Positions 18,021-48,100 of a stretch of 64,000 nt of DNA are shown here, piece by piece. Below the pieces are notes generated by a model. That model did not search any database, was not told where the DNA came from, and was given only the letters and a program-made list of their open reading frames with translations. This DNA comes from Apostichopus japonicus (taxonomy: Eukaryota; Echinodermata; Holothuroidea; Aspidochirotida; Stichopodidae): contig NC_092562.1 in NCBI RefSeq assembly GCF_037975245.1, positions 21,409,054 to 21,473,053 on the forward strand, written 5' to 3'. The translations under genes and the position numbers were made by a program. Every line of letters starts with the position of its first letter. The stretch's first letter is position 1.

Positions 18021-18259
18021 GTGTGCCCAAACTGGACAGCACAGACGAATATCCAATCAACACCAGAGAGAAACAGATTCAGCCCAACAGTATCAGGTTT
18101 TGCAATTTAGATATTTTTCTAGGCCTAAGCCTCACAGCATCAATTGCTTAAACATATATTAATTTTGTACCCTATTGTAAGACTCTATCACAGGCCCTCA
18201 ATCCAGCAACGTGAGTACTGTAGATCTCCAAGCCATGAGTCCGTTTTTTTAAGAGGGCC

Positions 18260-19205
18260 ATGGGCCTTCATGGCAGTCCACAGGACGGTTAGCCAAGTTC
18301 AACGGGAACATGGTCGACCTGGGGAACCGACGCTCAGAGAGTGGCTCGATGAATTTGAGCAGATCGTAAGCCCTCACAGTTTGGAAGAGACTGCTTAAAC
18401 AAGAGCACTGATCGACCACCTGACTTGGACCGCGAAGGATGAGGTAATGTGCCTTCCAGAACCAAAGCGCACCAAGTATGTCGAGGTGAAGAAGGCTCTC
18501 TTGCTATGTTTTATCCCAACAGAGACAGTGCAGAGTCTGAACAGCACACTTCATAAGAGAGTGAAGTCCAGGGACCAGGAGAGTCATTGGCAGAATTTAG
18601 CAGGGCTTTGATGCCTTTATACGGACAAATGGAGAGCATGGCCGAAACCCAGAAAGAAAGGGAGGCTTTAAGTTAACTTAGAAATGGCACTCTCAAAGAG
18701 CAATTCGTTCGAGGAGCCAGAGAAGCATGGGTGCAGGGAGAGTTGAGACGGATCGCTATGTCTCAGTCAGAAGATGACTTTTCCCGAATGAGTGAAGGGG
18801 CTATGCTGCTCTTTCAAGATTCACGACCCCAGAGAAAGACCCACATCAGAGAGGTGACAGCTGGAAGCCATCAGACAGAAGCAGACGAAGCTTCACAACC
18901 AATGAAGACCATGATGGAGAGCCAGCTGAAGTTGCTGGAAGAAGTTGCCAGTTTGAGAGGGGAACTCTCCACTCTGAAGCCACTGGCATCAGAGGTGGAG
19001 GCACTTCGTACAAAAGTAAGGAAACTAGAATTGAGTAGGCCGAGAGCAAACCGTGGGAATCCCCGATACTCTGGAAGGCCAAGGTACAGCACTCAAGACA
19101 GACCACCAGCCGGGTCCTAGATGAGGTAGAGTGCTACAACTGCCACCTAAAGGAGAATTTTGCAAATGACTGCCCCACTGTTCCTGTGTCTTCCTTCCCC
19201 GAAAA
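18260..19205 (+). mobile_element. Gypsy-type gag, copy 2, broken
   Basis: Same gag family as copy 1. Landmarks are TLREWLDEFEQIVSPHSLEE, an in-frame TAA at about 18396, LIDHLTWTAKDEVMCLPE, TETVQSLNSTLHKR, then after further breaks ELRRIAMSQSEDDFSRM and a coiled coil (QLKLLEEVASLRGELSTLK) with a basic RPRANRGNPRYSGRPRYS tail. The zinc knuckle at about 19129 reads CYNCHLKENFANDC, with the metal-binding His replaced by Asn. Stops and frameshifts show it is a relic. Confidence 0.72.
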
Positions 19206-19502
19206 TGGACCACAGCAGGGAAACTACTGACCTCTGTTGTGGAGGGCAGTACAGCAGAGCGTAAAAAGTTTAATCAATTGCCCATTGTAAATCTTAACCT
19301 GGAAGCGCCTGAATTCCGTTGCCAACAGGTCAGATGTTAAAGTATCGTCAATGCAGGAAGTTCTAGTAGCAGAGGTAGAGGCTGAAAGCAGAGAAAACAG
19401 TGAATTGGTCCTCTTAGCTTACGTGGTCTCTGACTAAACTGCAGACGAGCCTTCCGTTTTGTTAGCGCCTCTCTCAGCGCTCCCTCCTATATCCTTTCAC
19501 TG

Positions 19503-19741
19503 ACAATAACCTGCTGACTTATATTTTGACAACTGCTAGACTCAGTGCAACAGGACATCGGTGGGTTGAAGAATTAGCTGGATATCCGTTCAATATTAGA
19601 TACCGACCTGGGAAGAAAAACCAGGATGCTGACACTCTATCTAGGATACCTTTAATAGGACACATAGAGACTTACATTCAGAGAGAGTGCACACAAGAGG
19701 TACAGAATTATCAGAAGATCTCGCTCCTAAGGGATATTTGA
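19503..19741 (+). mobile_element. Gypsy pol RNase H C-terminus fragment
   Basis: DNNLLTYILTTARLSATGHR, then WVEELAGYPFNIRYRPGKKN and QDADTLSRIP are the characteristic end of the Gypsy RNase H domain. It is probably the pol remnant belonging with gag copy 2, the rest of pol having been deleted. The last 34 codons form the first unit of the tandem array that follows. Confidence 0.85.
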
Positions 19742-20492
19742 CTTATGACGGACCAGGATCTCTATCTAGGATACCTTTAATAGGACACATAGAGACTTAC
19801 ATGAGAGAGTGCACACAAGAGGTACAGAATTATCAGAAGATCTCACTCCTAAGGGATATTTGAATTATGACGGACCAGGATCTCTATCTAGGATACCTTT
19901 AATAGGACACATAGAGACTTACATTCAGAGAGAGTGCACACAAGAGGTACAGAATTATCAGAAGATCTCGCTCCTAAGGGATATTTGACTTATGACGGAC
20001 CAGGATCTCTATCTAGGATACCTTTAATAGGACACATAGAGACTTACATGAGAGAGTTCAGACAAGAGGTACAGAATTATCAAAAGATCTCACTCCTAAG
20101 GGATATTTGACTTATGACGGACCAGGATCTCTATCTAGGATACCTTTAATAGGACACATAGAGACTTACATGAGAGACTGCACACAAGAGGTACAGAATT
20201 ATCAGATCTCGCTCCTAAGGGATATTTGACTTATGACAGACCAGGATCTCTATCTAGGATACCTTTAATAGGACACATAGAGAATTACATGAGAGAGTGC
20301 AGACAAGAGGTACAGAATTATCAGAAGATCTCACTCCTAAGGGATATTTGACTAATGACGGACCAGGATCTCTATCTAGGATACCTTTAATAGGACACAT
20401 AGAGACTTACATGAGAGAGTGCAGACAAGAGGTACAGAATTATCAGAAGATCTCGCTCCTAAGGGATATTTGACTTATGACGGACCAGGATC
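19630..20492 (+). repeat. ~121-bp tandem array grown from Gypsy RNase H-integrase linker
   Basis: Seven units, marked by GACGGACCAGGATCTC (or one variant) at about 19747, 19870, 19995, 20116, 20235, 20357 and 20477; spacing 119-125 bp. Each unit begins CTATCTAGGATACCTTTAAT and ends with CTCCTAAGGGATATTTGA. The first unit is in frame with RNase H (LSRIPLIGHIETYI). Later units carry a 4-bp deletion variant and stops. Confidence 0.9.
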
Positions 20493-21613
20493 TCCTACCC
20501 AAATTCAAACTGTCACTGTTCAAAACCCAGAGTGTTATGTGTCAAAATTTGGTAGTGCCCAACAACAGAGATACAGGAATGTCAGGGACTAAAAGTAATG
20601 TAGTGATTTGAAAATAGTGCCCTAGCATACTATTGGCATGGTACTAGTATTTGACTGACTCAGCATGTGGTCAGGAGAACCCCTTTGTCTACATAATTGT
20701 AGTAAAGTGAAATTTTGTAGTGCACCCGTTTAGTATTTGCATGTATTATGTAATATGCCGTAACAGTCAGTTTGTTAGCGTTAGTTGTTTGCACGTGTTT
20801 TGTTGTTCAGTTTCTGTATACGTTGTTGAATGGCGAACATCGTCCCTGCAAAGCTCCGGGGTTCGCCTCGTCAACCCCTTATTATTTCATCATATTTATT
20901 AATCTTGGGTCGTCATTAGCCCAGATTTACTCTATATCTTTACTGCCTGAAGTCCGTGAGGAGATGTCACCCTTCTCAGAGGCAGGATGCCTCAGGTTTT
21001 GGATGGTTCGGCTTCTGGCTCGAAGCCACTGGTTTCCAAGATGGCGGACCATACCAACATACTGTATATTGGCAAACGTTTTGTATTATTTATGCACATT
21101 ATATCATTATGTTCATTTTACATTGTTTATTTTACACTTCGTGTAGTTATTGCGAGATTTGTATTTCGAAGCTTTATTTATGGTACAGATAGAGTTCTGT
21201 TATTGGTATTTCACAGTATGAGTATAGGTGCTGTGCATTTCATAGGTTGAGTATAGGTTCTTCCCCGAGTCAGGATAGTTTTATTAAGAGTAAAGAGTCC
21301 GTTAAGCCATTTGAGTTGATTAAGCCATTTACTGTATATTGTCATGTATCATGATTTGTTCATATGTATATTATCATTTTATAAGAGTTATTTTGTAGAG
21401 TTTGTAATAAAAGTCAGCCGTTGTTTCAACGCAAGAACACTCTTGCATCCTCATTTATAACTTATGAGTTCGAAGCGTAGGACCCTAAATCCGGTAATTT
21501 CGCCCGCCAACCGGGGTTCGCTTCATAATCACAGCCCAGGGAGTGCATCAAGCTGTGGAATGCAACCAATCAGTTTGATTTTGAAGCGATGAGCCAAATT
21601 TTTTAAGCTGGCA
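20493..21613 (+). mobile_element. probable Gypsy LTR region
   Basis: Non-coding region between the array and gag copy 3, where an LTR is expected. A possible LTR start (TGTAGTGC) is at about 20716. A poly(A)-like AATAAAA is at about 21406, followed by a probable U5 and a leader up to the gag start. I could not find a second copy in the window, so the borders are unproven. The overlapping short frames at 20.7-21.2 kb are not genes. Confidence 0.4.
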
Positions 21614-23775: not shown

Positions 23776-24261
23776 AGCCGAAAATTGACCGACCATTGAC
23801 TGTGGATAATCTGAATGACCCTAATGGACCAGAACCGCTCACTCCAAACCGCCTGTTGACCACTAGGTCAGAATTGATCTTATCACTGTTAGGTGAATTT
23901 GTGAAAGAGGACATCTACACTAAGAAAAGGTGGAGACAAGTCCAGTTCCTGGCAAACGAATTCTGGACCAGATGGAGGAAAGAATACTTGCAATCCTTAC
24001 AATCGAGAGCCAAATGGGGTAAAGTTAAACGAAACCTTGAAGTAGGTGATATTGTACTCCTCAAGGATAAAGAGCTGGTACGAGGAAACCTAAGACTGGC
24101 ACGTATTGTCGAGACTAACCAGAGACAATTTGGTCAGAAAGGTCAAACGTCTAATGGCAGATTCTGATTTGAATAAGATGGGCAAACGAGTAAAGGAACC
24201 AGTTTATCTTGAACGACCTGTTCATAAGTTGGTATTATTTCAAGAAAGGGAGCAGTTTTAA
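23776..24261 (+). mobile_element. BEL/Pao integrase C-terminus, remnant
   Basis: From VNSRKLTDH through LTVDNLNDPNGPEPLTPNRL, KRWRQVQFLANEFWTRWRKE, RNLEVGDIVLLKD and LARIVET, this is the classic C-terminal integrase/DUF5641 region of BEL/Pao. A frameshift near 24130 restores VKRLMADSDLNKMGKRVKEP and ends at TAA 24259-24261. Gag and most of pol are missing between the leader at 23.6 kb and here. The element continues after the hAT insertion with GGGAGTTGG... at 27.9 kb. Confidence 0.88.
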
Positions 24262-25544: not shown

Positions 25545-25697
25545 AAACGGATCAGATAAACATAGGCATTCATCTATAACCTGGTTTTTCAATTGTTGCT
25601 ACAATAATGGAGTATTATTAAAGAAATTCCAAATGATCTTAATAATTGCAAATCGCAATCTGAATTATATTTCCCTTTATTTCTTTATCTTCACAGG

Positions 25698-26527
25698 AAA
25701 GTGTAACACTCATGAAGAGGCAGTTAGATGGGTGCTTGCCATGGACCCCAAGACCAGCCACCTCTTACCAACATGGCAGGACATAGATGTCCTCGAAAGC
25801 ATTTGTAGCGCCCTAGAGCAGGTCTCCAAATTTACGGACATGATTTCTGGGGAAAATCAGGTAACCATTAGTTCAGTAATTCCCACACTTGCACTCTTTG
25901 AAGCAGAGATTTTTGCCGCAAAGGAAGGGGACACGCAACTCACAAAAGACATGAAACGACGAATGTTAGAGGACTTCCAGTCTCGCTACGAAGGGAAAGA
26001 CTTTGTCACTTTATTGAAAATAACATGTTTTCTAGACCCGCGGTATAAAATCGATTACCTCGATGAGGATGAAGTACTAGAAGCAAAGAACTGTATTATT
26101 GCAGAATGCAGAGGTAACATGGAAAAGAAAGTCAAGAACCCTTTTATTCTTAGTGAAGGGGAATGTCATCCAGGGAAAAGAAAGTTTGGAGATCTGCTGC
26201 AAAAGGCAGAAAAAGCGGGGGCAAGTTGGTGGTGTTGGTGGCCAATATGCTGATCTTAACAATGAGGAAAAAATCAAGAAAGAGATTGGGACATATCTTG
26301 CCACCGATTCGATTCAATGGGAGGCCGACCCACTGGAGTGGTGGAAAGGAGAGGCAGTCAAGTTGCCTTGGCTTGCTCTCTTGGCAAAAAATATTTGTGT
26401 ATTTGTGGATCAAGTTCCTCATCTGAGCGACTTTTTTAGCACAGCTGGGAACATTGTTACTGCAAACAGAAGTAGGCTGCAGCCAGAGAAAGTTAGAATG
26501 TTTACGTTTTTGGCAAAAGATCTATGA
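25698..26527 (+). CDS. hAT transposase (C-terminal two thirds), one frameshift
   Basis: Follows a good 3' splice site (TTTCTTTATCTTCACAG ending at 25697), so it is probably a downstream exon. Landmarks are EEAVRWVLAMDP, HLLPTWQDIDVLESICSALE, FTDMISGENQVTISSVIPTL and FLDPRYKIDYLDED. This is the ZBED/hAT-Ac catalytic core, in which the Asp of LDPRYK is conserved. A frameshift at the GGGGG run near 26216-26220 leads to the dimerisation domain: DPLEWWKGEAVKLPWLALLA, then AGNIVTANRSRLQPEKV and the end at TGA 26525-26527. The N-terminal BED finger is not seen. Confidence 0.85.
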
Positions 26528-29116: not shown

Positions 29117-30460
29117 AGGATGGCAGACTTGGACGAGATGCCTTAACGCCTAAATGAGATGGAGAAGGAACTATCGGAGGCGACGAGGGGTGGTTCCGAA
29201 CGCCCTGGAGTAGTCTACCTCTTGCCCAAGGAGAAGAAGTTAAGATCGTTCTCAGGGGTAGAAGATCAGGTGTGCTTTCCTTTATTGAGGAAGCAAAAGG
29301 AGCTCTGCAATTAAGGAAATTGGAAGACCAGGATGCCTCAGAGTTTGTCATCGCACATCTTGAAGGGAGTGCCCGACAAGAGGTAAGGCACCGGCCACAG
29401 AGTGGCGTATCTGAGCCAAAGAAGCTTTTCACGCTCCTTCAGGAGACTTTTGAAGAGAGGGGCTCTCTTAGCTGCCTTATAAGGGAGCTGTGCAACAGGG
29501 TACAGAGGGATGGGGAGTCAATGTACGCTAGATGCGTTCTCCCTGATGAAGCTGTCGGACAAATTAAAGGCCTTCCATGGTGCTCCGAACGTAGAAGGTA
29601 CCCTCAAGGAGCAGTTTAGAGATGGCCTGTCAGAGATTGTCCTCAGGAAGGAAGTAAAACGTTTGATGAAGGATCCCTCTCTTTCATCGCTCTGAGAGAC
29701 TGGGCCTTAGACATGTCCGAGGAGTCTAGCAACTTGCCCGGCGCAAAGCCCAGAAGCCTGGGGTATATGGGATGGAAGTTATTCCTAACCCTCAATTGTC
29801 TGCTATTCTGGAGACACTTGTGAACACTGTAGAGAAGCAGACAGGGATTCTTCAGGAATTGGAGAATGATCAGGCACTGTCGAAAAGAGTTGAGACGCTG
29901 GAAATGACAAACAGACTAACAGAAAGTCGTCGAACCAGACAAAGAGGTGATAAGAGTCAGGTAGAATGCTATCGCTGTCATGAGCATGGCCACTATGCCA
30001 GTGAATGCCAGAACCCATTGCCGGTACCAGGACCCTCAACCAGGACAGGACAGGGAAACTAGAGACACCCAGAACCAAGAGCCAGGAACTGGGTGCAATT
30101 GGTAGGTCTGAAGGCTCGATGGTGGCAAGTCCAGTGATTGTGGGGAGGAGTCCTACAACAACAGTTAGGATGCACAGGGTTAATTTTGTTGCTACTGTGG
30201 ACACTGGATCAGATGTTACCACCATGACCGAGGAATGCTTCCGACGTAGTTTCTCAGGTGTCCCACTTGAACAGCTGAGTTGGCTGACCATTACTGCTGC
30301 AAATGGAGGAGAGCTTCCGTACATTGGGTATTTTGTGGCAGACATTCATATCGATGAGTTCATCATTCCTTGGCGTGGTATAATGGTGGTGCGAGTGAGC
30401 AAGGATGTTCCCATGTTGCTGGGAATGAATGCCTTGAAGGAGCTGCCACCTGACGTGTAA
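29117..30460 (+). mobile_element. Gypsy gag-protease, broken
   Basis: Gag begins MADLDEM with an early stop. VVYLLPKEKKLRSFSGVED follows, then after a frameshift FIEEAKGALQLRKLED and FVIAHLEGSARQEVRHRPQ, LLQETFEERGSLSC, and another shift to LSDKLKAFHGAPNVEGTLKE and DGLSEIVLRKEVKRLMKD. The 29772-30062 frame carries a coiled coil and an intact zinc knuckle, CYRCHEHGHYASEC. 30122-30460 is a retropepsin: FVATVDTGSDVTTMTEE with the active-site DTG, and LLGMNALKEL near its end. No RT follows. At least three breaks make it inactive, although the protease frame itself is open. Confidence 0.82.
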
Positions 30461-31119: not shown

Positions 31120-31345
31120 AATAACCCTATCATCCAAAACTCCAAAGAAGCTTTCAGAAAAGATGTATGCAGAAATAATCAAACTGGTCACAGAACATGA
31201 ACACCCAACTCCTAGTCCAATTGTGCAGAGGTTCAAGTTCAACTCGAGAAACCAAAAGGAGGGTGAATCATCGTTTGCCAACTATGTCGCCAAACTCTTT
31301 AATCTTAATTTAAGAATGATGTTGTCTATGAAAGGTACGGTTTGA
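31120..31345 (+). mobile_element. Gypsy gag fragment (third family)
   Basis: KMYAEIIKLVTEHEHPTPSP, IVQRFKFNSRNQKEGESSFA and NYVAKLFNLN match the common Gypsy gag motif in which 'RFKFNSR...GES...F/YVAELR' occurs. It is cut off at 31345. It resembles the gag N-terminal piece at 33.25 kb in style, so both may come from the same family. Confidence 0.75.
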
Positions 31346-32469: not shown

Positions 32470-32945
32470 AACCTTACTACAATGGTAGGCTACTGCCTGA
32501 GTAGTATAATGCGTGACTGTTCACACTATTGTTGTCGCTCATGTGGTCAACAAGGACATACCGCAAGCCAATGTCCAACAATAAGATGCTACAAGTGTAA
32601 CAAAGATGGTCACAAAAGCTTCCAGTGCCCTGAAAACAGAAAGGAGGACAACCTAACCGTCACTGGTAATCCGAACAAGGAAGAACAAAACAAAGATGAA
32701 ATGCAACAAGAAGCCAGCCCTATTGTAACCGAAATGCCTACGGAAACCAGTTCTGAACTGAATCACGAAGCAAATGCAGCCAATGAGAAACATGCGACCA
32801 GAATAACAGAAGATAAAACCAAGCCAGAATCATCCAGTAAAACTGAACATTAATCAGCATCTCAGCCATCAATTAGTACAGCAAGTAGAACTCCTGAACC
32901 GACTGGAATGAAGAGAACAATCTCAAGCGAAGACGATACTAGACT
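32470..32945 (+). pseudogene. non-LTR retrotransposon ORF1, copy 3 (knuckles and tail only)
   Basis: YCLSSIMRDCSHYCCRSCGQ retains most of the first knuckle. CRSCGQQGHTASQC and CYKCNKDGHKSFQC are complete. An acidic, Glu/Asn/Thr-rich tail follows to TAA at 32851-32853, with SISTASRTPEPTGMKRTI still readable beyond the stop. The RRM-like half is missing. It is closest to copy 2 in the knuckles (KCNKDGHKSFQC against QCQQFGHKSFEC). Confidence 0.78.
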
Positions 32946-33247
32946 ATGCTAAACTTTTCAGCATACTTCGTAGCTTTTCAATTCAATATTTCTTTAAAAT
33001 GCTGAGTTAAAATTTCGTAAATATTAGTATAAGTATATACTTGTACATATATATATTCCATAAGATACACCTACCCCGAGGTCACCTATGTCATATCAGA
33101 TATACCCGAACCACCAAATAGACCACAAGTATGTTCTCACTCACGCGTATTGAATGTGTCTTATTAGTGGCGACGAGGATTATTTTTCTAACGGAAATAA
33201 TTTTTCTTCGCCTTCTATATCTTTTATTATGTCTCATGGCTTTATTT

Positions 33248-34021
33248 GGGTTTCGAGAACGCAGGGAGGAATGGATCCAATATGTTGAGCATTTCTTCGC
33301 AGCTAACAATGTTGCGGACGAAACAAAGACACGTTCCATGTTAGAACACAAAATGGAAAACGGCTCAGAGCAACCGATTGGGTTTGCTTCACGCACATTG
33401 TCGAGAGTGGAAAAGAATTATGGGGTGATAGGGGGCAGTGGTAATATGTCCAGTGCCATTCATTTCAGGAAACTTCAGGAAAATAAGTGCAAGTGGCATA
33501 AGTCCAACTGAGGACAAAATTATGGCAATTAAAGATGCCACAGCACCACAGAATTTTACTCAGTTGAACCATTTTCCTCATTTTTTAGACAATATTGCAA
33601 TGGTTGTTGAACCATTGAAGAGGTTACTTAGGAAGGATTCCAAATGGAATCAGGAAGAGGCAGAATAGAAGGTAATTGAAAAAGCAAAAAGTATGCTGCA
33701 TTCTGAAACCCTACTAGTTCATTTTGACAAGAAGCAGGTGGTACTGTCATGTGATGTTCAAATTATGGGATATCGGCAGTATTGGCAAATCCTACGGAAT
33801 GGTCCTAGGCTATTTGAGACAGATTCGGCTAGACTGGTCAGCTATTAACCGTGTACACAACTGTCCGTTAGAGGACATTATTGCAGTCCACAGTGGAGCT
33901 TTCCGTGAGGGACTCGGAACACTTAAAGGAGCAAAAGCGAAAAAATAAATGTTGATTCCACGGTGACTCCTATTTATTGTAGGCCGCGTTCTGTGCCATA
34001 CGCTATGAAAGAAAAGGTAAA
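33248..34021 (+). mobile_element. scrambled Gypsy gag/pol fragments
   Basis: Domains appear out of order. FRERREEWIQYVEHFFAANN is the gag N-terminus. It is joined in frame to an RNase H middle piece (GSEQPIGFASRTLSRVEKNY, 33360-33420). Next comes the RT thumb/connection (GISPTEDKIMAIKDATAPQN, then VEPLKRLLRKDSKWNQEEAE, a stop, and LVHFDKKQVVLSCDV, 33500-33760). Last comes the RT N-terminus (LRQIRLDWSAINRVHN, GAFREGLGTLKGAKAK, and RPRSVPYAMKEKVNAEL, 33800-34030). Several frameshifts separate the parts. It resembles the K02A2.6-type Gypsy pol. The RT start leads directly into the satellite array. Confidence 0.78.
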
Positions 34022-37000
34022 TGCAGAGCTGAACAACTTCAGTCCTAAGGAATTATAGAGCCTGTCCAGTAACAATCGTATCAGACAATGGTGCTACATT
34101 TACTAGTGCTATTTTCAAAGAGTAAATGCCAAGAAACTCAATCACATAGCCCAGTCCATAGCCGACTCTGTCAGAATGGGTTATTGAAAGCCTGATACTG
34201 CAACAATAAATCAATGTTGTTTTAATTTTCTTTCTCTGAAGTTCTTTGGCCAGAAAAAACCAGTCAACTTGATCTACAGTCTGACAAATGGAGCTGAGCA
34301 ACTTCAGTCAGAAGGAATTAAAGAGCCTGTCCAGTAACAATCGTATCAGACAATGGTGCTACATTTACTAGTGCTACTTTCAAAGAGTTAATGCCCAGAA
34401 ACTCAATCACATAGCCCACTCTGTCAGAATGGGTTACTGAAAGCCTGGTACTGCAACAATAAATCAATGTTGTTTTAATTTTCTTTCTCTGAAGTTCTTT
34501 GGCCAGAAAAAACCAGTCAACTTGATCTACAGTCTGACAAATGGAGCTGAACAACTTCAGTCAGAAGGAATTATAGAGCCTGTCCAGTAACAATCGTATC
34601 AGACAATGGTGCTACATTTACTAGTGCTGATTTCAAAGAGTTCATGCCAAGAAAACTCAATCACATAGCCCAGTCCATAGCCGACTCTGTCAGAATGGGT
34701 TATTGAAAGCCTGATACTGCAACAATAAATCAGTCTTGTTTTAATTTTCTTTCTCTGAAGTTCTTTGGCCAGAAAAAACCAGTCAACTTGATCTACAGTC
34801 TGACAAATGGAGCTGAACAACTTCAGTCAGAAGGAATTATAGAGCCTGTCCAGTAACAATCGTATCAGGCAATGGTGCTACATTTACTAGTGCTATTTTC
34901 AAAGAGTTAATGCCAAGAAACTCAATCACATAGCCCAGTCCATAGCCGACTTTGTCAGAAGGGGTTATTCCTGATACTGCAACAATAAATCAATGTTGTT
35001 TTAATTTTTTTTCTTTGAAGTTCTTGGCCGGAAATACCCAGTCAACTTGATCTACAGTCTGACAAATGGAGCTGAACAACTTCAGTCAGAAGGAATTATA
35101 GAGCCTGTCCAGTAACAATCGTATCAGACAATGGTGCTACATTTACTAGTGCTATTTTCAAAGAGTTAATTCCAAGAAACTCAATCACATAGCCCAGTCC
35201 ATAGCTGTCTCTGTCAGAATGGGTTACTGAAAGCCCGGTACTGCAACAATAAATCAATGCTGTTTTAATTTTCTTTCTCTGAAGATGTTTGGCCAGAAAC
35301 AACCTGTCAACTTGATCTACAGTCTGGCAAATGGAGCTGAGCAACTTCAGTCAGAAGGAATTAAAGAGCCTGTCCAGTAACAATCATATCAGACAATAGT
35401 GCTACATTTACTAGTGCTATTTTCAAAGAGTTAATGCCCAGAAACTCAATCACATAGCCCACTCTGTCAGAATGGGTTACTGAAAGCCTGGTACTGCAAC
35501 AATAAATCAATGTGTTTTAATTTTCTTTCTCTGAAGATGTTTGGCCAGAAACAACCTGTCAACTCGATCTGCAGTCTGGCAAATGGAGCTGAGCAACTTC
35601 AGTCAGAAGGAATTATAAGGCCTGTCCAGTAACAATCCTATCAGACAATGGTGCTACATTTACTAGTGCTATTTTCAAAGAGTTAATGCCCAGAAACTCA
35701 ATCACATAGCCCAGTCCATAGCCGACTCTGTCAGAATGGGTTACTGAAAGCCTGGTACTGCAACAATAAATCAATGTTGTTTTAATTTTCTTTCTCTGAA
35801 GTTCTTTGGCCAGAAAAAACCAGTCAACTAGATCTACAGTCTGACAAATGGAGCTAAACAACTTCAGTCAGAAGGAATTATAGAGCCTGTCCAGTAACAA
35901 TCGTATCAGACAATGGTGCTACATTTACTAGTGCTATTTTCAAAGAGTTAATTCCAAGAAACTCAATCACATAGCCCAGTCCATAGCTGTCTCTGTCAGA
36001 ATGGGTTACTGAAAGCCCGGTACTGCAACAATAAATCAATGCTGTTTTAATTTTCTTTCTCTGAAGATGTTTGGCCAGAAACAACCTGTCAACTTGATCT
36101 ACAGTCTGGCAAATGGAGCTGAGCAACTTCAGTCAGAAGGAATTAAAGAGCCTGTCCAGTAACAATCATATCAGACAATAGTGCTACATTTACTAGTGCT
36201 ATTTTCAAAGAGTTAATGCCCAGAAACTCAATCACATAGCCCACTCTGTCAGAATGGGTTACTGAAAGCCTGGTACTGCAACAATAAATCAATGTGTTTT
36301 AATTTTCTTTCTCTGAAGATGTTTGGCCAGAAACAACCTGTCAACTCGATCTGCAGTCTGGCAAATGGAGCTGAGCAACTTCAGTCAGAAGGAATTATAA
36401 GGCCTGTCCAGTAACAATCCTATCAGACAATGGTGCTACATTTACTAGTGCTATTTTCAAAGAGTTAATGCCCAGAAACTCAATCACATAGCCCAGTCCA
36501 TAGCCGACTCTGTCAGAATGGGTTACTGAAAGCCTGGTACTGCAACAATAAATCAATGTTGTTTTAATTTTCTTTCTCTGAAGTTCTTTGGCCAGAAAAA
36601 ACCAGTCAACTTGATCTACAGTCTGACAAATGGAGCTGAACAACTTCAGTCAGAAGGAATTATAGAGCCTGTCCAGTAACAATCGTATCAGACAATGGTG
36701 CTACATTTACTAGTGCTATTTTCAAAGAGTTAATGCCCAGAAACTCAATCACATAGCCCAGTCCATAGCCGACTCTGTCAGAATGGGTTATTGAAAGCCT
36801 GGTACTGCAACAATAAATCAGTCTTGTTTTAATTTTCTTTCTCTGAAGTTCTTTGGCCAGAAAAAACCAGTCAACTTGATCTACAGTCTGACAAATGGAG
36901 CTGAACAACTTCAGTCAGAAGGAATTATAGAGCCTGTCCAGTAACAATCATATCAGGCAATGGTGCTACATTTACTAGTGCTATTTTCAAAGAGTAAATG

Positions 37001-40000
37001 CCAAGAAACTCAATCACATAGCCCAGTCCATAGCCGACTCTGTCAGAATGGGTTATTGAAAGCCTGATACTGCAACAATAAATCAATGTTGTTTTAATTT
37101 TCTTTCTCTGAAGTTCTTTGGCCAGAAAAAACCAGTCAACTTGATCTACAGTCTGACAAATGGAGCTGAGCAACTTCAGTCAGAAGGAATTAAAGAGCCT
37201 GTCCAGTAACAATCGTATCAGACAATGGTGCTACATTTACTAGTGCTACTTTCAAAGAGTTAATGCCCAGAAACTCAATCACATAGCCCACTCTGTCAGA
37301 ATGGGTTACTGAAAGCCTGGTACTGCAACAATAAATCAATGTTGTTTTAATTTTCTTTCTCTGAAGTTCTTTGGCCAGAAAAAACCAGTCAACTTGATCT
37401 ACAGTCTGACAAATGGAGCTGAACAACTTCAGTCAGAAGGAATTATAGAGCCTGTCCAGTAACAATCGTATCAGACAATGGTGCTACATTTACTAGTGCT
37501 GATTTCAAAGAGTTCATGCCAAGAAAACTCAATCACATAGCCCAGTCCATAGCCGACTCTGTCAGAATGGGTTATTGAAAGCCTGATACTGCAACAATAA
37601 ATCAGTCTTGTTTTAATTTTCTTTCTCTGAAGTTCTTTGGCCAGAAAAAACCAGTCAACTTGATCTACAGTCTGACAAATGGAGCTGAACAACTTCAGTC
37701 AGAAGGAATTATAGAGCCTGTCCAGTAACAATCATATCAGGCAATGGTGCTACATTTACTAGTGCTATTTTCAAAGAGTTAATGCCAAGAAACTCAATCA
37801 CATAGCCCAGTCCATAGCCGACTTTGTCAGAAGGGGTTATTGAAAGCCTGATACTGCAACAATAAATCAATGTTGTTTTAATTTTTTTCCTTTGAAGTTC
37901 TTGGCCGGAAATACCCAGTCAACTTGATCTACAGTCTGACAAATGGAGCTGAACAACTTCAGTCAGAAGGAATTATAGAGCCTGTCCAGTAACAATCGTA
38001 TCAGACAATGGTGCTACATTTACTAGTGCTATTTTCAAAGAGTTAATTCCAAGAAACTCAATCACATAGCCCAGTCCATAGCTGTCTCTGTCAGAATGGG
38101 TTACTGAAAGCCCGGTACTGCAACAATAAATCAATGCTGTTTTAATTTTCTTTCTCTGAAGATGTTTGGCCAGAAACAACCAGTCAACTTGATCTACAGT
38201 CTGGCAAATGGAGCTGAGCAACTTCAGTCAGAAGGAATTAAAGAGCCTGTCCAGTAACAATCATATCAGACAATGGTGCTACATTTACTAGTGCTATTTT
38301 CAAAGAGTTAATGCCCAGAAACTCAATCACATAGCCCAGTCCATAGCCGACTCTGTCAGAATGGGTTACTGAAAGCCTGGTACTGCAACAATAAATCAAT
38401 GTTGTTTTAATTTTCTTTCTCTGAAGTTCTTTGGCCAGAAAAAACCAGTCAACTAGATCTACAGTCTGACAAATGGAGCTAAACAACTTCAGTCAGAAGG
38501 AATTATAGAGCCTGTCCAGTAACAATCGTATCAGACAATGGTGCTACATTTACTAGTGCTATTTTCAAAGAGTTAATTCCAAGAAACTCAATCACATAGC
38601 CCAGTCCATAGCTGTCTCTGTCAGAATGGGTTACTGAAAGCCCGGTACTGCAACAATAAATCAATGCTGTTTTAATTTTCTTTCTCTGAAGATGTTTGGC
38701 CAGAAACAACCAGTCAACTTGATCTACAGTCTGGCAAATGGAGCTGAGCAACTTCAGTCAGAAGGAATTAAAGAGCCTGTCCAGTAACAATCATATCAGA
38801 CAATGGTGCTACATTTACTAGTGCTATTTTCAAAGAGTTAATGCCAAGAAACTCAATCACATAGCCCAGTCCATAGCCGACTCTGTCAGAATGGGTTATT
38901 GAAAGCCTGATACTGCAACAATAAATCAGTCTTGTTTTAATTTTCTTTCTCTGAAGTTCTTTGGCCAGAAAAAACCAGTCAACTTGATCTACAGTCTGAC
39001 AAATGGAGCTGAACAACTTCAGTCAGAAGGAATTATAGAGCCTGTCCAGTAACAATCATATCAGGCAATGGTGCTACATTTACTAGTGCTATTTTCAAAG
39101 AGTTAATGCCCAGAAACTCAATCACATAGCCCACTCTGTCAGAATGGGTTACTGAAAGCCTGGTACTGCAACAATAAATCAATGTTGTTTTAATTTTCTT
39201 TCTCTGAAGATGTTTGGCCAGAAACAACCTGTCAACTCGATCTGCAGTCTGGCAAATGGAGCTGAGCAACTTCAGTCAGAAGGAATTATAAGGCCTGTCC
39301 AGTAACAATCCTATCAGACAATGGTGCTACATTTACTAGTGCTATTTTCAAAGAGTTAATGCCCAGAAACTCAATCACATAGCCCAGTCCATAGCCGACT
39401 CTGTCAGAATGGGTTACTGAAAGCCTGGTACTGCAACAATAAATCAATGTTGTTTTAATTTTCTTTCTCTGAAGTTCTTTGGCCAGAAAAAACCAGTCAA
39501 CTAAATCTACAGTCTGACAAATGGAGCTAAACAACTTCAGTCAGAAGGAATTATAGAGCCTGTCCAGTAACAATCGTATCAGACAATGGTGCTACATTTA
39601 CTAGTGCTATTTTCAAAGAGTTAATTCCAAGAAACTCAATCACATAGCCCAGTCCATAGCTGTCTCTGTCAGAATGGGTTACTGAAAGCCCGGTACTGCA
39701 ACAATAAATCAATGCTGTTTTAATTTTCTTTCTCTGAAGATGTTTGGCCAGAAACAACCAGTCAACTTGATCTACAGTCTGGCAAATGGAGCTGAGCAAC
39801 TTCAGTCAGAAGGAATTAAAGAGCCTGTCCAGTAACAATCATATCAGACAATAGTTGTACATTTACTAGTGCTATTTTCAAAGAGTTAATTCCAAGAAAC
39901 TCAATCACATAGCCCAGTCCATAGCTGTCTCTGTCAGAATGGGTTACTGAAAGCCTGGTAATGCAACAATAAATCAATGTTGTTTTAATTTTCTTCCTCT

Positions 40001-40590
40001 GAAGATGTTTGGCCAGAAACAACCTGTCAACTCGATCTGCAGTCTGGCAAATGGAGCTGAGCAACTTCAGTCAGAAGGAATTATAAGGCCTGTCCAGTAA
40101 CAATCCTATCAGACAATGGTGCTACATTTACTAGTGCTATTTTCAAAGAGTTAATGCCCAGAAACTCAATCACATAGCCCAGTCCATAGCTGACTCTGTC
40201 AGAATGGGTTACTGAAAGCCTGGTACTGCAACAATAAATCAATGTTGTTTTAATTTTCTTTCTCTGAAGTTCTTTGGCCAGAAAAAACCAGTCAACTAGA
40301 TCTACAGTCTGACAAATGGAGCTAAACAACTTCAGTCAGAAGGAATTATAGAGCCTGTCCAGTAACAATCGTATCAGACAATGGTGCTACATTTACTAGT
40401 GCTATTTTCAAAGAGTTAATTCCAAGAAACTCAAGCACATAGCCCAGTCCATACCTGACTCTTTCATATGGGGTTATTGAAAGCCTGGTACTGCAACAAT
40501 AAATCAATGTAATTTTAATTATCTTTCTCTGAAGTTCTTTGGCCAGAAACAACCAGTCAACTTGATCTACAGTCTGGCAAATGGAAACAG
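34022..40590 (+). repeat. satellite: 25 units of ~265 bp derived from Gypsy pol
   Basis: The marker GCCTGTCCAGTAACAATC recurs 25 times, from about 34061 to 40353. Most spacings are 264-266 bp, with 251-258 bp in a few deleted units. Read on the + strand, each unit opens with AEQLQSEGIIEPVQ, the start of a Gypsy RT, followed in another frame by IVSDNGATFTSAIFKEL, the integrase core around the second catalytic Asp. The remaining ~150 bp are full of stops. Adjacent units differ by diagnostic variants that recur at longer periods, giving a higher-order arrangement. No monomer can make a functional protein. Confidence 0.93.
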
Positions 40591-40985
40591 GTTGGTGATA
40601 AGATGGTAAACGTATGTAAGGATCATCATGGCCCATGTTTTGTTAATTAATATACAACAGTGAAAACTGGTGTTCAGAAAATGTCAGATGGTTCTTTGCA
40701 ATCAGGTTATCAAGGTGTCTGTTTAACTACAGAAACTCTCCACATGCCACAACAGGGGGTCACCCCAGCCACTGTTATGTTTCAGAGGACACTTCAAGTC
40801 CACCGTAGTTTGGCTCAACCTAACACTAAGGGGAGAGTTTAAACTCGGCAGGTAAAATAGAAAGCATATCATCATGTGCATACCAAAGACAGAAAGTTTG
40901 AAAAGGGAGGGATGACGTAATTGTACGAAATTTCCTGAAGGGTCCTATGTGGATCTTAGGTGACGAACTTAATGTTCTCAGTGAC
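40591..40985 (+). mobile_element. Gypsy integrase C-terminus fragment
   Basis: GVTPATVMFQRTLQVHRSLA, then a TAA where an Arg-rich linker is expected, YHHVHTKDRKFEKG and, one frame over, DDVIVRNFLKGPMWILGDEL. This is the end of a Gypsy integrase (the 'F.GR.L...L' and 'G..V.VRNF..G..W..G' motifs). With the RT N-terminus at 33.9 kb it brackets the satellite, so the satellite occupies the middle of one degraded pol. Confidence 0.8.
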
Positions 40986-41288
40986 AAATTGTATTTAATA
41001 TTGCTATCTGATGGTGAAGGTCACACAAGGATAACCCTGACAATGATTGGTAGTCTGATCATCACCATGTGTCATGTACAAAAAGTGTTGTGTAGCAACA
41101 AAATAAACCATAATAATGATCGAGTCTAACCTCAATTTGACTTTCGTGTAATCGCACCAACATGTGAGCTGATCGCAACGATAACATACCCTGGTTTGTA
41201 TATGGTTGGCCACAACAGACAAACTTCAAATTAACTACAATATATGGTACCATTAATTTAAGCCAATCAAAAAACAGTTTGATATGAT
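40986..41288. other. non-coding, nothing recognised
   Basis: Spacer between the integrase remnant and the SINE; possibly Gypsy 3' sequence. Confidence 0.4.
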
Positions 41289-41540
41289 AGGAGTGTTAGC
41301 TCAGTGGTTAACGCCGGTGCCTTCCAATCTTAAGGTCCCCGGTTTAAGTCACTCCAAGATAAATGTATGTCATCCAGTTACAGAGTTGTTGACAATTAAC
41401 AATTCATAATCATGGACGTTAAAAATGAATCTAAGAGACTGACTTCGGTCGGCTTGTGGCTTTGATAAGCCAATAAGGCTTCTTCGCAGGTTCCTGCTTG
41501 CAGGATGATCTAAAATACATACATACATACACACATACAT
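41289..41540 (+). mobile_element. tRNA-derived SINE, copy 3 (most complete)
   Basis: The head folds like a tRNA: GGAGTG at the 5' end can pair with CACTCC at the end of the tRNA part. It has an A box (TTAGCTCAGTGGTTAACGCC) and a B box (GGTTTAAGTCACTCC). The body is shared with copies at 11.4 and 13.8 kb, and includes the palindrome CCTGCTTGCAGG. The tail is an (ACAT)n run at about 41515-41540. Confidence 0.87.
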
Positions 41541-42090
41541 ATTGATTATATGGTACCATGGCACAGAGGTCACTATTCAGTGTTCATGTTCAACTATGTT
41601 ACAAGCAAGTTTCAACATCAATGTTTGCATTGTTAGCAGGATGAACACTTGCCACATATGATCAACGGAGCCAAAACATTATTAGCCTTGTCAACATTTC
41701 TCTCAAAGACGTGTTTAAATTTTCTACTATTTAAGCACTGTGATCTTTTGTAGAGTGCTCTATCAAATACGTAGTACTAATAATAATACTATTAGGCCCT
41801 TCTCTACAAGACCCTTCTCGGTAGCTGGACATGACTTGAACTGACCAAACCTTGAGGACAGACCACTCCAAGCCATTTCTAAGAAACCAGAGTAAAAGTG
41901 TGATTCTGACTTTGACTACCATAAAGTCAACCCTGATGAAAGTCATCCCCAACCCCCTTTAAGCCGTCTTGACTTAACTAGAATTTCAGGAAACTTATGG
42001 GTATCTTTTCCATCTAATTTTTCTTTATCATTTCAAGTTGTTGAGGTTTGTGACATTACTACAAATGAAATAGTTCCTCAATTCAAACCT
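41541..42090. other. non-coding spacer downstream of TOE1
   Basis: No supported gene. 41568-41600 (GGTCACTATTCAGTGTTCA) resembles 45141-45175. Confidence 0.45.
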
Positions 42091-42092
42091 GT

Positions 42093-42098
42093 TTTATT
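42093..42098 (-). terminator. TOE1: TOE1 poly(A) signal
   Basis: AATAAA on the minus strand, only about 13 bp past the TOE1 stop codon. If used, the 3' UTR would be extremely short. Confidence 0.45.
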
Positions 42099-42111
42099 TT
42101 AGGCGTTTACA

Positions 42112-45100
42112 TCACCTGCCCTCTGATGAGCTTAATCTCTCCATCTTCTCTCTGTGAGCCTGAGATGACTTGGCGTAGGAACTCTTCATGATCAGCATCG
42201 GGATGTTCTTGCCTGTCAGGGCTAGTTTGTTTGCTTCTCTACTCATGCCGAATCCCTCCAGTTGCCTGCCCTCCTCTTCTTCTCCCTCCGAGGGGAACTT
42301 CCCTTGCTCGTTGACGATGCAAGCCAGAGCGAAACCAGTCATGAAAGCATCGAACCCTGCTCGATGACTGCCATGTTGCCTTGGTGACACGCTGCTGTTT
42401 TCATTCGCCTTTCCCAAGGCCAGGCCTCCGTCGTTAGTCATACTCACTGCAGGACCATTTTCTGCCTTTCCTAACTTCCTCGGCGGTTCGTCTGCCTCTG
42501 CTGCATCCATCTGTGAATCGCTTTCAAGGACAGGGGATGGAGATGGTTCATTTTCTTTACTCTCTTCATCCAGCTGTCCCTCCTCTGTCTTCATCTTTCG
42601 CTTTCTCCGTCTCCGTTTCTTTTTCTGTTCCGTTCGGGTTTGGTCCGCATCGAGGATTACATCAAGGTCGTGGGAATCTTCACAATTACTTTTCTTACAG
42701 AATCCAAAGGCCTGAACAGGGGAGAAAAATACATCATGCAATCAATATCATATAGAACTGATTATCACCTTCCATCGAGATGTAACAACATACGTCTTTT
42801 ATACTTGGAAATATTGCCAAAATGCGTTTTCATGACCAACCCCTTTCATCCAACTGAATTCCAGAGTGTCGGTCCTACGGTGCAGTCTAAGTCTAACCTA
42901 CATTAACAAACCCCATTTACAAACTGACATAGTAGGCAACAGTAAAATAACACATATAGGGAACTTTCCTTCACAAACAATAACCAGTATATATAGCAAC
43001 TTTTGCAAAGATTGAAGTACTCTCACTGTTGTAGTACATAAAAAAAAAAAATTACTACTAAAAACAGTATACAAGAAATACTCACAGAATATAGATGGCA
43101 TATTTTCTTTTTATGTTCAGTTTGAATCCCTTGGTTGGTCTCAGGAAGGGTACAAGGATGATACTCTACAAATCTGGACCCATCTGGGTACTCTTGGAAT
43201 GTAAGTGTGATGTGTCTCTCCTCACAAGCTGTGTGGTTTGAGTTATCACGTAGACTGTGGGCAACATGAAAATGGGTGCACATAAAAATTATCAACCCTC
43301 CATGGCACATGTAGAATGCTGATGACTTATGTTTTCAACTGTGCATATACTGTATATATATATAATGTATAGATGTGTACAAAACAGACTTAAAAAGAGT
43401 CTGTTCTTTTACAATAAACCTTTGATGCACACACCACAATGATGTATTTGTACTTGAACTCATGCTCCTACTGATACAGAGGAAATTCTACTTGAACTCC
43501 AATTCTCACGTTTAAACGTGTAAACGAACGAAACATCGTTTAAACATTTAATAAAACCCGATGAACGTTTAAACGAAACTATGATATCAACTGAAAATTA
43601 AATTATTGGCAAAAATCACGTATCAATTCCCGTGTTTATTTTGTCTACTACGCGAAATAACAACACAACTTACGATCAGTCGAATCATAAACCGCGAATG
43701 TAATCCTACTTTTGTCCCCCCCCCGATGTATCCGGCGATATGAATGGCTTAAACTTGAACGCTGTTATCCTTTTGTGAAAACTTCCTGATTCGCGGCACA
43801 AGTGTACTTTATATGGAGCCGACAGCGGCGGCGCAGATAATCCAGTCAATGCATGTTTGATTGAAATGATTACAATCCCTGTCCATCACGTTGAACTCTC
43901 CGACCAGACAATACCGGGTCGAATACTTGACTTGGTAATAGTTGTTCAAATACATGATCAAAGGAAATGTATCGATTGGAGATCGTAAAAAAAAACTCTG
44001 AAAATCAGTAGAGAAATTACCAATTGTGTACGAAAAGTAAGTTCGGTCCTTTCAAATTTTACGAAAGATCCAGCAAAACACTTTCGAAAAATTCACGCGG
44101 AACTGGCATATCGTGCTAAATGCAACTAATGTCATGTAAACATGGCTCTAGTACACCCATTTATGAATAAACCGTAAGACCACATCTGGTGTTAAGCAGA
44201 GGGGGGGGGAAGAAAGTATTTTCTAGAATTTCCAAAATACGGAAAAAAATAATGTCCTACCATAGTTAAGTGTATAGCAAATAGCCTAACCACCTCGTCT
44301 GTTACTGATCTCACGTAACTACAAAAACACAACTAATTGTATTTTGAGAACTTGACGTTTTCTACAAGAACATGGAAATAATGTTTAGCATTAGTTAATC
44401 ATGCCGTGTGGCCTAAAACATATTTTATTCCAAGGTTTACTTTCATAAAGATGGCCATAGCTTGATATCTTGTGCTGCGTGTATGAACTGTGCCTCGTGT
44501 ATCATGGGGAATACTCCATGAAACGTTTCTTGGAAACGTGCCAAAAATGTTAACAAACAGGTGTTAGACAGGGAATAAGCGCACAGTTGTTTGGCGAGGT
44601 ACCTGGGAAAATTCCGAGCACATGTACAGTATCCTACCGTAGTATTTAAGTTCGGTTAAACCGTACTGCAGTTGTAAACTGATGTACGTTTAGTGCGCGC
44701 TATTCATTGTTAGGCAGTCTAGAAACGGGGCTTTGCCAAACTTTTTTTGTTTCATAATATCGGAGGTTCTGTAAGTTAAACTTTTTAAAGATTGTACGAC
44801 AGATTAAATCTCTTTTCATTTTATAACATAATATAGCTACTCTTACTTGTCATTTATAATTTTTCATCAGCTTCGTGACAATTTAAATTAAAAAAGTTGT
44901 CAGTATTTTGCATCCTCAACTGCGAATTTTTTTATCGCCAGACACGCAAAAATTTGCTTTTCCTTTTCCGGGGTCTTCGCCCCACCAGGGCCCTAGGGCA
45001 GTACCCTGGACCCCACGCCTCTATGCTCGAACGCTACGCATGCTCAGCGTTTTCTCGCGATTTTCGCGAACGTTTAAACGAACGAAAAATCGGCCGTTTA

Positions 45101-48100
45101 AACGTTTAGGTCTTTAAACGAAAACTCACAGCCCTACAAAGGTCACTCTTCAGTGTTCACATTCAACTGTCATTTTCTGTTTTAGCACCATGGCACGAAG
45201 GGTACAGTGATACGTACAGTAATACAGTGATATAAGTATTTATACTGTACAGTGATACAGTGATATTGTATAGTGATACAGTGATATACTGTATACTGTA
45301 CAGTGATAATGTAGTTTAATAATTCAGGGAATAATTTTCCTGTCAACACATATCAAACTGGACCAAGCCTTTACTACACAAATGCAAAGATGTACAGTGC
45401 TTTGTCTGTACATGCAGCCTATATTATTTTTGTCAGTACTTTATAAACTTCAATTGACCAATTACCAAATTTATTTACATGAAAATAGAATCCTCACTAT
45501 CTTTACTTCAATACCTTCTGCTATTCTTTTATGGGAGGAAATATAGTATCTTGAAGAGGTACTCATCTCAAACATAGGAGTACATCAAAAGAGATGTAAA
45601 CACATCTGTTGATCTTTACTGCATGTGAATGAGTTATTTGTGATCTGCCACTCCTTCATCAAGCTAAATATTTACACAATATGAGTGTCTATATTATAGC
45701 ACTTTATACAAGCAATAGGTCTCATAGCGCTTTATCATACAGAGACTACTCAAACTGTTTGATAGTTAATTATAAAGAAACTTTTTGAGTAGATCTTGAT
45801 AAAGTGGTCAGTGCTATTTGATACTGGAAATCCATGACAATGTAGGTTAGGTACTTGACTAGTCAAATTTTTGATTTCCAATGATGAAGATGACATTCAT
45901 AATTCGGAAAATTTCTTATTTGCTGTTTAGGAGTGAATTTAATGCTAATCTACAAAATGTGTCTGGCCTATGAAATGTTTCGGATCCTATCGATTTATAA
46001 GAACTTGTTTGCAAAGATTTAATTGGTAGAAAAAGTTGGAAGAGTTCAGAAAATAATTTAGAGTCCAAATATTTTGAAGCAGTTTTTAACAGGATCTGAA
46101 TTTTGTCTCTATAAAAATGCTATGGTTCCTGTGTAAAACAAAGTACAATACATTTTTGAACTTGAATAGCAACTGGAACATTTTGCTATGCGATACTGGA
46201 TAAATTATTCCCTGAAGGTTACTTTGTTTGATCAGTTGTAGTCTTATTTTAAGGAATTTACTTGGTACGGTTGATGAAAACATTGCCAATCAAATGCAAA
46301 ACACTGATATTGCTGGGTGCAAGAATTTCTGTTACAAATAATGACTATGAAAGAACCATTCAAGTCATAATTTTCATGTTTCAAGTTACATTGTGCCATA
46401 ATTTTTTAACCTATAAATTTAAAATTCTGCCAAAATTCCTATTTTTGCAATTGCTTGTATGCCAACCGTACATGGTCTTGCACAAACATGACACAAATCC
46501 AAGTATATTAATTTTACCCTGTATCAGTTAAATATATTTTATCTTTGAACTTACCATTTTCTGAAAACATATTCCAAATAAGAAGATGGCATCCTGGCTG
46601 TGAATTCAGCCAAATACTTGGTATCAAACAGACCCCCCTTGTACATCTCGCTCAAGTCCACCAAAAACTGAGAAAAGGACGGTGGGAGGTTGGTGTAAAA
46701 GTGTTGGTAAAGAAACGCCATGTCGATGAAACCATTGTGAACCACGACTGGTTTGCAGCTCATCAAGATCTCTCCAAAGAGATTACGTATAGAGATGTCA
46801 TCTATTTCACTACCCTTAGAATGGAAGGATGAATGGAATAATTAGGAATCATGAAAATGCTAGATATCAAACAACCACTCTCTAACTTCTCAATGACTTA
46901 GATCTGTACATAGTGTATATACATGCAGAATAGAATCTCTTTGTAGACAACACAAGATACTCTACATTAAACATGTGAGCTTGGACTCAAAACTTAAGGC
47001 TATGAAATATTTTGAAACTAAATTTCAGAATCGAAGACATTATTTACAAAATCACTAATAAAATCACTTAAAACACTTCTTCTACAAAGACTTCTCATAA
47101 AATATTCTAGTGTTTACACAGGTCCAAAAATCGGGAACCCGGGTATCCAGGTACCTGGAAAAAAAAATTGTTTACCCTCATGTATCGCGATTTTCAAGAT
47201 ACTACATATTGGATGCTATACTAAATGAATAATATCCTCCACATGTTTTCATGTTCAAATAAGTGTAAGATAAGGTATAAAACCTTCCTCAGTAATTTCT
47301 ATTTGCTTCTGTTTCTTTCATTAACTTGTTAATAACTTTATATAATTAACATCACTACTTATATGACACTGCCGACGCTGCTAATGTTTGTTCTCCACCT
47401 CTATTGGATTAGACCATATAAATATCCAATTTAACTCTTAAACAGTGTTTACTACTACTATCTACTATGCAGGCCCAGGATTCGCATTAGCCGTGGGATT
47501 GCGTGATTCCCGCAATTTCATCGCATTTGGAATAAACGTCAGTACAAAGCCCCTTGCGATTATTATTTTTTAGTAATCCAATCTATAATCCATTAGTAAC
47601 ATCTCATAAATTTCCTTGTCAGTCTTTCCTTCTATGCAATTAACGAATGAAAATATAATAAGTGTGAAAATTCTTTCAATAGCCTAACACCAAACTAAGT
47701 CAATGGGGAAATTTAGCCAAACCATCTGTTTATTCGCTGAAATTGTGGCGCAGTTATAAGATATCCATGAAATACTTTCATTATTGCTGAACATTATCTT
47801 CGACCACATGGTAGCCTAACACCACGCTAAGTCAATGGGAAAATCTTGTCTAACCACCTGTTTATTCGCTGAAATTGTGACGCAGTTATAAGATATCCAT
47901 GGAATACTTTCATTATTGCTGTTATGTTTGACCACATGGTAGCCTAACACCGCACTAAGTCAATGGAAAAATCTTGCCTAACCATTGGTCTGCAAAAAAA
48001 AAAAAATCACACTTTGTGTAGGATTCAGGTAATAAATTAGGAACCGGGTAGTATCGTGTCGGGTGGGTACCCGGATACCCTGTGCAAACACTACAATATT

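Follow-up and report, generated by a model that had tools for sequence, protein, structure and literature searches.

The beginnings of satellites have mostly been inferred from old, homogenized arrays from which the founding joint is gone, and the locus described here raises the question of how a satellite starts when that joint can still be read. The locus lies in a 64,000-nucleotide stretch of Apostichopus japonicus contig NC_092562.1 (hereafter the window; positions are counted from its first letter) and consists of a tandem array set among the remains of Gypsy retroelement genes. At this one locus, the breakpoint that founded the array is legible together with the flanks that supplied its two halves and the likely sources of filler DNA, and therefore breakage, capture of filler, duplication at microhomology, and expansion in blocks become testable. 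We read the locus, with a probability of somewhat under 0.8, as the birth in place of a unit of mixed source, that is, as a short, local satellite at its starting point.

The array and its founding joint

The array is made of 25 complete head-to-tail units of 252 to 266 bp, all in a single orientation, and extends over ~6.6 kb (Table 1), with a mean pairwise identity among the units of 95.1% when gap columns are left out. Tandem Repeats Finder (TRF) called it at 34410-40585, with 92% matches and a period of ~265 bp, and a second repeat finder agreed. Furthermore, blocks within the array are 100% identical to each other (units u02-u03 to u13-u14, u06 to u09, and u18 to u22). The array is a real repeat structure, and chance is excluded as its cause. 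The first-pass annotation of this DNA, which had recognized a 25-unit satellite within 33800-40985, bracketed the array correctly.

The genome searched comprises 671.6 Mb in 35 contigs, with the array on contig C2, and for each of the two DNA searches of the genome, with the whole unit and with the right flank, the best 30 candidates were scored. Among the candidates of the whole-unit search, no full unit was found outside the array. As regards what is expected of a satellite, a head-to-tail monomer of satellite length is present, and abundance, whether through long arrays or through several loci, is absent, the single 6.6-kb array being all that was recovered from these candidates. In particular, the same monomer as arrays at many unrelated loci, for which the first-pass annotation had proposed a search, was found neither there nor in the pattern scan described below.

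All 24 joints between units are identical (AAATGGA/GCT, the slash marking the joint), and the flanks of the array hold its two halves, the left flank reading aaatgcaga/GCTGAAC and the right flank aaatgga/AACAGG. The microhomology between the flanks at the joint amounts to 2 bp, GA, inside a looser AAATG..GA match. Outside the array, the reverse transcriptase (RT) sequence extends only leftward (33811-34027, continuing into unit 1, as had been noticed in the first pass for an RT N terminus in front of the array), and the homology to a locus on contig C16 extends only rightward, continuing the end of unit 25. The joint combines the C16 half of the right flank with the RT half of the left flank, and it is therefore as a tandem duplication in place would have left it. 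The evidence supports an array that is in place at its origin, with a single founder breakpoint legible from both flanks, in agreement with the earlier proposal of amplification at the birthplace.

Composition of the unit

Starting from the joint, the unit consists of ~43 bp of RT, ~75 bp of integrase core, ~73 bp resembling a locus on contig C18, and 83 bp resembling the C16 locus, with an overlap of a few bases between the C18-like piece and the end of the integrase piece. The RT and integrase pieces together give a Gypsy share of about 42 to 45%, and the unit thus has the homology to a transposable element (TE) that is expected of a TE-derived monomer; more than half of it, namely the C18- and C16-like pieces, is not recognizably Gypsy. 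Of the words legible in the unit, EGIIEPVQ belongs to RT and VSDNGATFTSAIF to the integrase; because their reading frames differ, the unit is a fusion of DNA and no open reading frame. The earlier description of the monomer as an RT start fused to an integrase core stands as far as both sets of words are present, but not as to the frames, nor for the larger part of the unit. Similarly, an integrase C terminus does follow the array, but not directly, as had been claimed, since 69 bp of the C16 locus (40586-40654) lie between. Two matches of the Gypsy relative L018 (see below) inside the array come from its positions 3789-3902, a stretch that is at odds with the integrase core.

Candidate source loci of the C18- and C16-like pieces

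For the C18-like piece, the sole match outside the array, among the best 30 candidates and in a pattern scan, is at C18:10708344 on the minus strand (73 bp, 84%). In the scan, a 33-base pattern taken from this piece, with up to 3 mismatches, gave 24 matches in the array, 1 on C18, and 0 in the control; the only unit missed was u04, which has a 6-bp deletion there.

The C16-like part of the unit matches a locus that occurs at at least 28 places on C16, a lower bound because 30 candidates were scored per search, and the C16 homology of the right flank (up to 69 bp) hits the same 28 places. We compared 24 of these 28 copies with the window (4 were left out) around the full 152-bp C16-like piece formed by the end of unit 25 and the right flank. 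To the left of this piece, the window is like the C16 copies at 15 to 20 of 33 to 40 columns, and the copies are like the best-matching copy, L021, at 30 to 38 of 33 to 40; to the right, the corresponding figures are 9 to 12 of 26 to 32 columns and 18 to 38 of 28 to 39. Thus, for all 24 copies, the similarity to the window is lost at both ends of the 152 bp and is kept among the copies themselves. Since the similarity to the window ends while the C16 copies still match each other, the window holds an internal fragment of the C16 locus, and it follows that the direction of copying was from C16 to the window. The insertion as a whole transposon was rejected for the same reason, the window containing the internal fragment only. 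With respect to templated insertion, an internal fragment with its donor still in place is present for C16, and for C18 there is the one 73-bp match. At position 75 of the C16-like part, the base found in all 24 C16 copies is also present in ten units, u25 among them, and the other 15 units differ; u04 and u15 are displaced by an indel in this comparison, and the comparison with the best copy was redone with gaps.

As to the C16 locus itself, its copies lie in clusters, at 2.05-2.67 Mb and 22.8-27.4 Mb (L005, L006, L008-L010, and L021-L040), within which the places are ~30 to 215 kb apart and in both orientations. Some frames of the copies have translations that resemble each other between copies and may be coding. 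A Pfam search with four open frames of L008 gave no family, one match lying far under the cut-off. The locus may represent a gene family expanded in tandem, and splice-site-like edges would suggest an exon with intron flanks.

Gypsy remains around the array

The Gypsy protein relatives found in the genome are distant, the best non-self match being 46% over 61 residues (150 of 207 candidates scored). From the 28 non-self matches of this search, three relatives (L018, L019, and L020) were cut as yardsticks, and tiles of them were compared with the window by tblastn; not every Gypsy piece was matched by all three. Over the matched pieces, the relatives are 25 to 62% identical, and L019 matches pieces on both sides of the array.

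The usual order of Gypsy genes is gag, RT, RNase H, and integrase, and the matched pieces of the three relatives lie in this order. In the window, by contrast, the order is a primer-binding-site-like motif, the gag N terminus, RNase H, an inverted bit of integrase, the RT thumb and connection, the RT N terminus, the integrase core, the array, and the integrase C terminus. As regards the identity of the host, gag, RT, RNase H, and integrase are all present by tblastn with the pieces of the relatives; the usual gene order between two long terminal repeats (LTRs) is not there, the order being scrambled. No LTR pair was found between 32501-33300 and 40851-42500, where the best match was 44 bp at 75% (E 0.004). 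Pfam RT_RNaseH matched the RNase H piece just below the cut-off (E 3.3e-5, 24.4 bits versus 24.8), and the other pol pieces gave no retroelement match in Pfam at an E value of up to 1. Tiles of the three relatives found no match nearby for the RT palm, the remaining RNase H, and the spacer.

In the relatives, the end of the thumb piece lies within ~3 codons of the start of the RNase H piece, although their order is swapped here, and the integrase core and the inverted middle bit abut within a few codons (both by eye); this suggests to us that one element was cut up and rejoined. A chromothripsis-like shattering, in which pieces of one source would each be used once in random order and orientation, may be considered: the order and one short inversion, read from 13 to 20 residues, would fit, and by eye the pieces share no more than a few codons.

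When the genome was searched with the DNA of the RT flank, no near copy appeared beyond the flank itself and matching pieces of the array, and a protein search of the genome with the integrase found only itself among 18 candidates, which is weak evidence since the query was frameshifted. A family-wide repeat built into a living Gypsy element, of the Ogre/PisTR-A type, was considered and rejected, as the best 30 candidates and the pattern scan held no other copy with the unit, and the search with the RT flank gave no near copy. A gag middle piece (Table 1) and a zinc-knuckle frame (32482-32853) precede the gag N-terminal piece, and both may be part of another element.

Table 1. Features of the array, of its flanks, and of the Gypsy remains in the window (L018 to L020, Gypsy relatives; L021, copy of the C16 locus at C16:23043466-23043616; aa, amino acid identity)
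Feature	Position	Strand	Evidence and remarks
Gag middle piece, upstream of the gag N terminus	31142..31306	+	L020 47% aa, E 6.7e-11; L019 too; same element or neighbor
Primer-binding-site-like TGGCGACGAGGAT	33167		Before the gag N-terminal piece; similar motif precedes gag in L019; not found in L018, L020
Gypsy gag N-terminal piece	33241..33343	+	L019/L020 matches 33251-33343
Gypsy RNase H piece, upstream of the RT pieces	33344..33442	+	L018/L019/L020 matches from 33314-33335, overlapping gag match, 38-59% aa; border by eye
Gypsy integrase middle piece (NGTGHITTAPYHP), inverted	33422..33460	-	L018 only, 33481-33422, 50% over 20 aa, E 4e-4; shortest, weakest piece
Gypsy RT thumb/connection piece	33480..33792	+	Matched up to 33770 by 3/3 relatives, lowest E 4.6e-13; last 22 bp by eye, other frame
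Gypsy RT N-terminal piece, left flank into unit 1	33811..34070 (RT part of unit 1 ~34028-34070)	+	L019 (1/3 relatives): 33954-34055 47% aa; also 33811-33846, 33945-34055; EPVQ to 34070 by eye
Tandem array	34028..40585	+	TRF, repeat finder, units cut at joint; 24/24 internal joints AAATGGA/GCT
Gypsy integrase core piece, unit 1, recurring in units	34066..34143	+	L019 only, 34033-34143, 50% aa; left border by eye; out of frame with RT piece
C18-like piece, unit 1	34138..34209	+	84% over 73 bp in units 11-12, placed on unit 1 by position
C16-like 83 bp, end of unit 1 and each unit	34210..34292	+	L021 best of 24 C16 copies for 25/25 units, gaps allowed
Full C16-like 152-bp piece	40503..40654	+	83 bp at the end of unit 25, 69 bp (40586-40654) in right flank; 93.4% to L021
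Gypsy integrase C-terminal piece, right flank	40655..40872	+	L018 25% over 71 aa; L019 38-59% over 17-39 aa

Proposed origin and alternative explanations

The sequence directly shows the array with its one breakpoint, flanks that continue into it, pieces from outside Gypsy, Gypsy pieces in the wrong order, and duplicated blocks; behind these, it is possible to hypothesize the following history. An old, decaying Gypsy element would have been broken at several points and its pieces rejoined out of order, one of them inverted. The gap between the integrase core and the integrase C terminus would have been filled with DNA copied from the C18 locus and from the repeated C16 locus, leaving the single-copy series RT N terminus, integrase core, C18 bit, C16 bit, and integrase C terminus. 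Through the 2-bp GA microhomology, a tandem duplication may then have placed the RT N-terminal piece behind the middle of the C16 bit, giving the first two units of ~265 bp, and unequal exchange or conversion within the array, involving one unit or several at a time, could have led to the present 25. The order of these events, the repair of breaks as the mechanism, and the choice between one scramble event and several belong to our reconstruction.

Several points weigh against a birth in place along these lines. The unit at the left edge, u01, is not the most diverged (98.1% identity to the unit majority), and the one at the right edge, u25, is low (94.3%), yet u23 is lower (93.2%). The absence of further units was established on limited numbers of scored candidates. 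The inverted integrase bit depends on 13 to 20 residues and one relative, L018; L019 is the sole relative that matches the RT N terminus and the integrase core; and the borders of the pieces were partly set by eye. Because the relatives are distant, the pieces could stem from two elements of one family. With a match on C18 of only 84% over 73 bp, the copying there may have gone in either direction, or both sequences might descend from a lost repeat. Finally, the founder state was read from one genome.

The first-pass annotation had explained the array by a single internal deletion in one Gypsy element, which would have made the RT-integrase junction, followed by amplification in place. The adjacency of RT and integrase core in the unit and the Gypsy flanks on both sides would suit this simpler history; the C18- and C16-matching pieces, which account for over half of the unit, speak against it, as does a shuffled element in which the RNase H and RT pieces are misordered and a short bit of integrase has the opposite orientation, and we consider it very improbable. 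An extrachromosomal circle, multiplied by rolling-circle copying and returned as a concatemer to the homologous locus, agrees with the uniform joints and the one orientation, and the block duplications would fit any concatemer. However, such a circle requires exact reinsertion at the locus of origin with both flanks in register, and neither an array nor a stray full unit was found elsewhere among the best 30 candidates or by the pattern scan, so that this route appears unlikely. An error of assembly, through collapse of repeats or a chimeric join, could have affected the length of the array as read from the assembly; the structured variation among units, with its copied blocks, and the presence of the halves of one breakpoint in both flanks, not expected from a random misjoin, make an artefact hardly credible.

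Selection might also keep the array, for instance for a role in chromatin or because a peptide repeat is expressed from it, and 15 frames on the minus strand, each exactly 82 codons long (TTG start, bacterial table), do overlap it. Nevertheless, in the 16 of 25 units that are exactly 265 bp long, the variable sites fall evenly on codon positions 1, 2, and 3 of this recurring frame (14, 13, and 13), and the 31 nonsynonymous and 11 synonymous changes, compared with 572 and 175 possible ones, are by inspection near the ratio of no constraint. A coding function of the frame was rejected, these counts revealing no clear constraint, and maintenance by selection seems quite improbable. The array is taken to be neutral, and the satellite is probably functionless. 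The preferred reading, in which a unit of mixed source arose in place, could be given a broader form: one catastrophic repair event may have shattered the Gypsy element, drawn filler from two contigs, and left the scar that seeded the array, or, in view of the second array described below, satellites of this genome may more generally arise from scars that repair has left in dead Gypsy elements. We regard this extension as possible but rather doubtful.

Comparison with known systems

Ogre-type tandem repeats spread along with the element, and the rye repeats E3900 and D1100 form large arrays on the B chromosome. The array resembles PisTR-A and the Lathyrus satellites, for which tandem repeats in Ogre Ty3/gypsy elements are described as satellite seeds (PMC9659126, PMC7004042); different from our case, where the repeat lies in a broken pol at one locus, the Ogre/PisTR-A repeats are placed there in the 3' untranslated region (UTR) or near gag (PMC9659126). 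E3900 and D1100 likewise have monomers with TE fragments (PMC9659126, PMC6947457), but their founding locus is absent from the passages of PMC9659126, whereas the founding joint is legible here.

More generally, satellites derived from TEs, Gypsy included, are well documented (passages of PMC9659126, PMC12628747, and PMC3648361), and end joining initiated by microhomology, followed by unequal exchange, has been proposed as a route from TE to satellite (passages of PMC12628747 and PMC9659126). This is the same mechanism as argued here; in those passages it is a general proposal, and at our locus the joint and both source flanks are legible. Close parallels are CRM1TR and CRM4TR of maize, tandem repeats from centromeric Ty3/gypsy elements, which share with our array Gypsy-born monomers, few loci, and local homogenization (passages of PMC3648361). 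However, the same source describes their monomers as entirely derived from the centromeric retrotransposon (LTR, UTR) and, in a supplement legend, their junctions as devoid of short direct repeats, whereas the present unit joins pol to two pieces matching non-Gypsy loci, in a dead element, with a 2-bp microhomology at the joint.

Filler DNA and tandem duplications at the repair of double-strand breaks, as reported in PMC2567098 and PMC8355091, involve capture of distant DNA at a joint and duplications at breaks, as here; the difference lies in the presumed repair scar, which here was itself amplified to 25 copies. In the mainly open-access literature covered, as far as titles, abstracts, and selected passages go, we noticed no published mixed-source monomer with the two halves of the founding joint preserved on either side. 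Satellites derived from TEs are known, and a monomer of mixed source that has stayed at the breakpoint where it began would add a new variant to them.

A second array and other features of the window

The window contains a second tandem array, at 19635-20494 and 13.5 kb from the first, with ~7 units of 122 bp (TRF). Its full units were found only at their own locus (7 of 9 matches), the other two matches being partial and on contigs C7 and C1. The left flank is the end of a Gypsy-like RNase H that runs into unit 1, and the region 19499-19703 is 83 to 84% identical to copies on C7 and C1, with the homology ending inside the first unit. Continuity was found for the left flank only, and a right half-joint was not identified. 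Two arrays within 64 kb thus begin inside broken pol remnants.

Other retroelements are represented in the window by a PNMA-like gag frame (17217-19120), weakly matched (E 7e-4, under the cut-off) and with a tail seemingly repeated at 18731, by eye, and by a separate aspartyl-protease frame (30005-30460); both are probably remains of other elements. At 23796-24167, there is a DUF5641 match (E 2.7e-19), a domain that we take to be typical of BEL/Pao integrase C termini. An open frame at 15259-15834 matches Pfam DUF3504 and Phage_integrase (tyrosine recombinase) and perhaps belongs to a mobile element, and remnants of a hAT transposase lie at 25633-26527, with an RNase-H fold just under the cut-off and the dimerization region. 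The segment 41290-41345 resembles, by eye, the head of a tRNA-derived short interspersed element, and ARAGORN found no tRNA in the window. Lastly, TRF reported short tandem arrays at 4438-4849 (~105 bp, 3.8 copies) and 47680-47984 (~132 bp, 2.4 copies).

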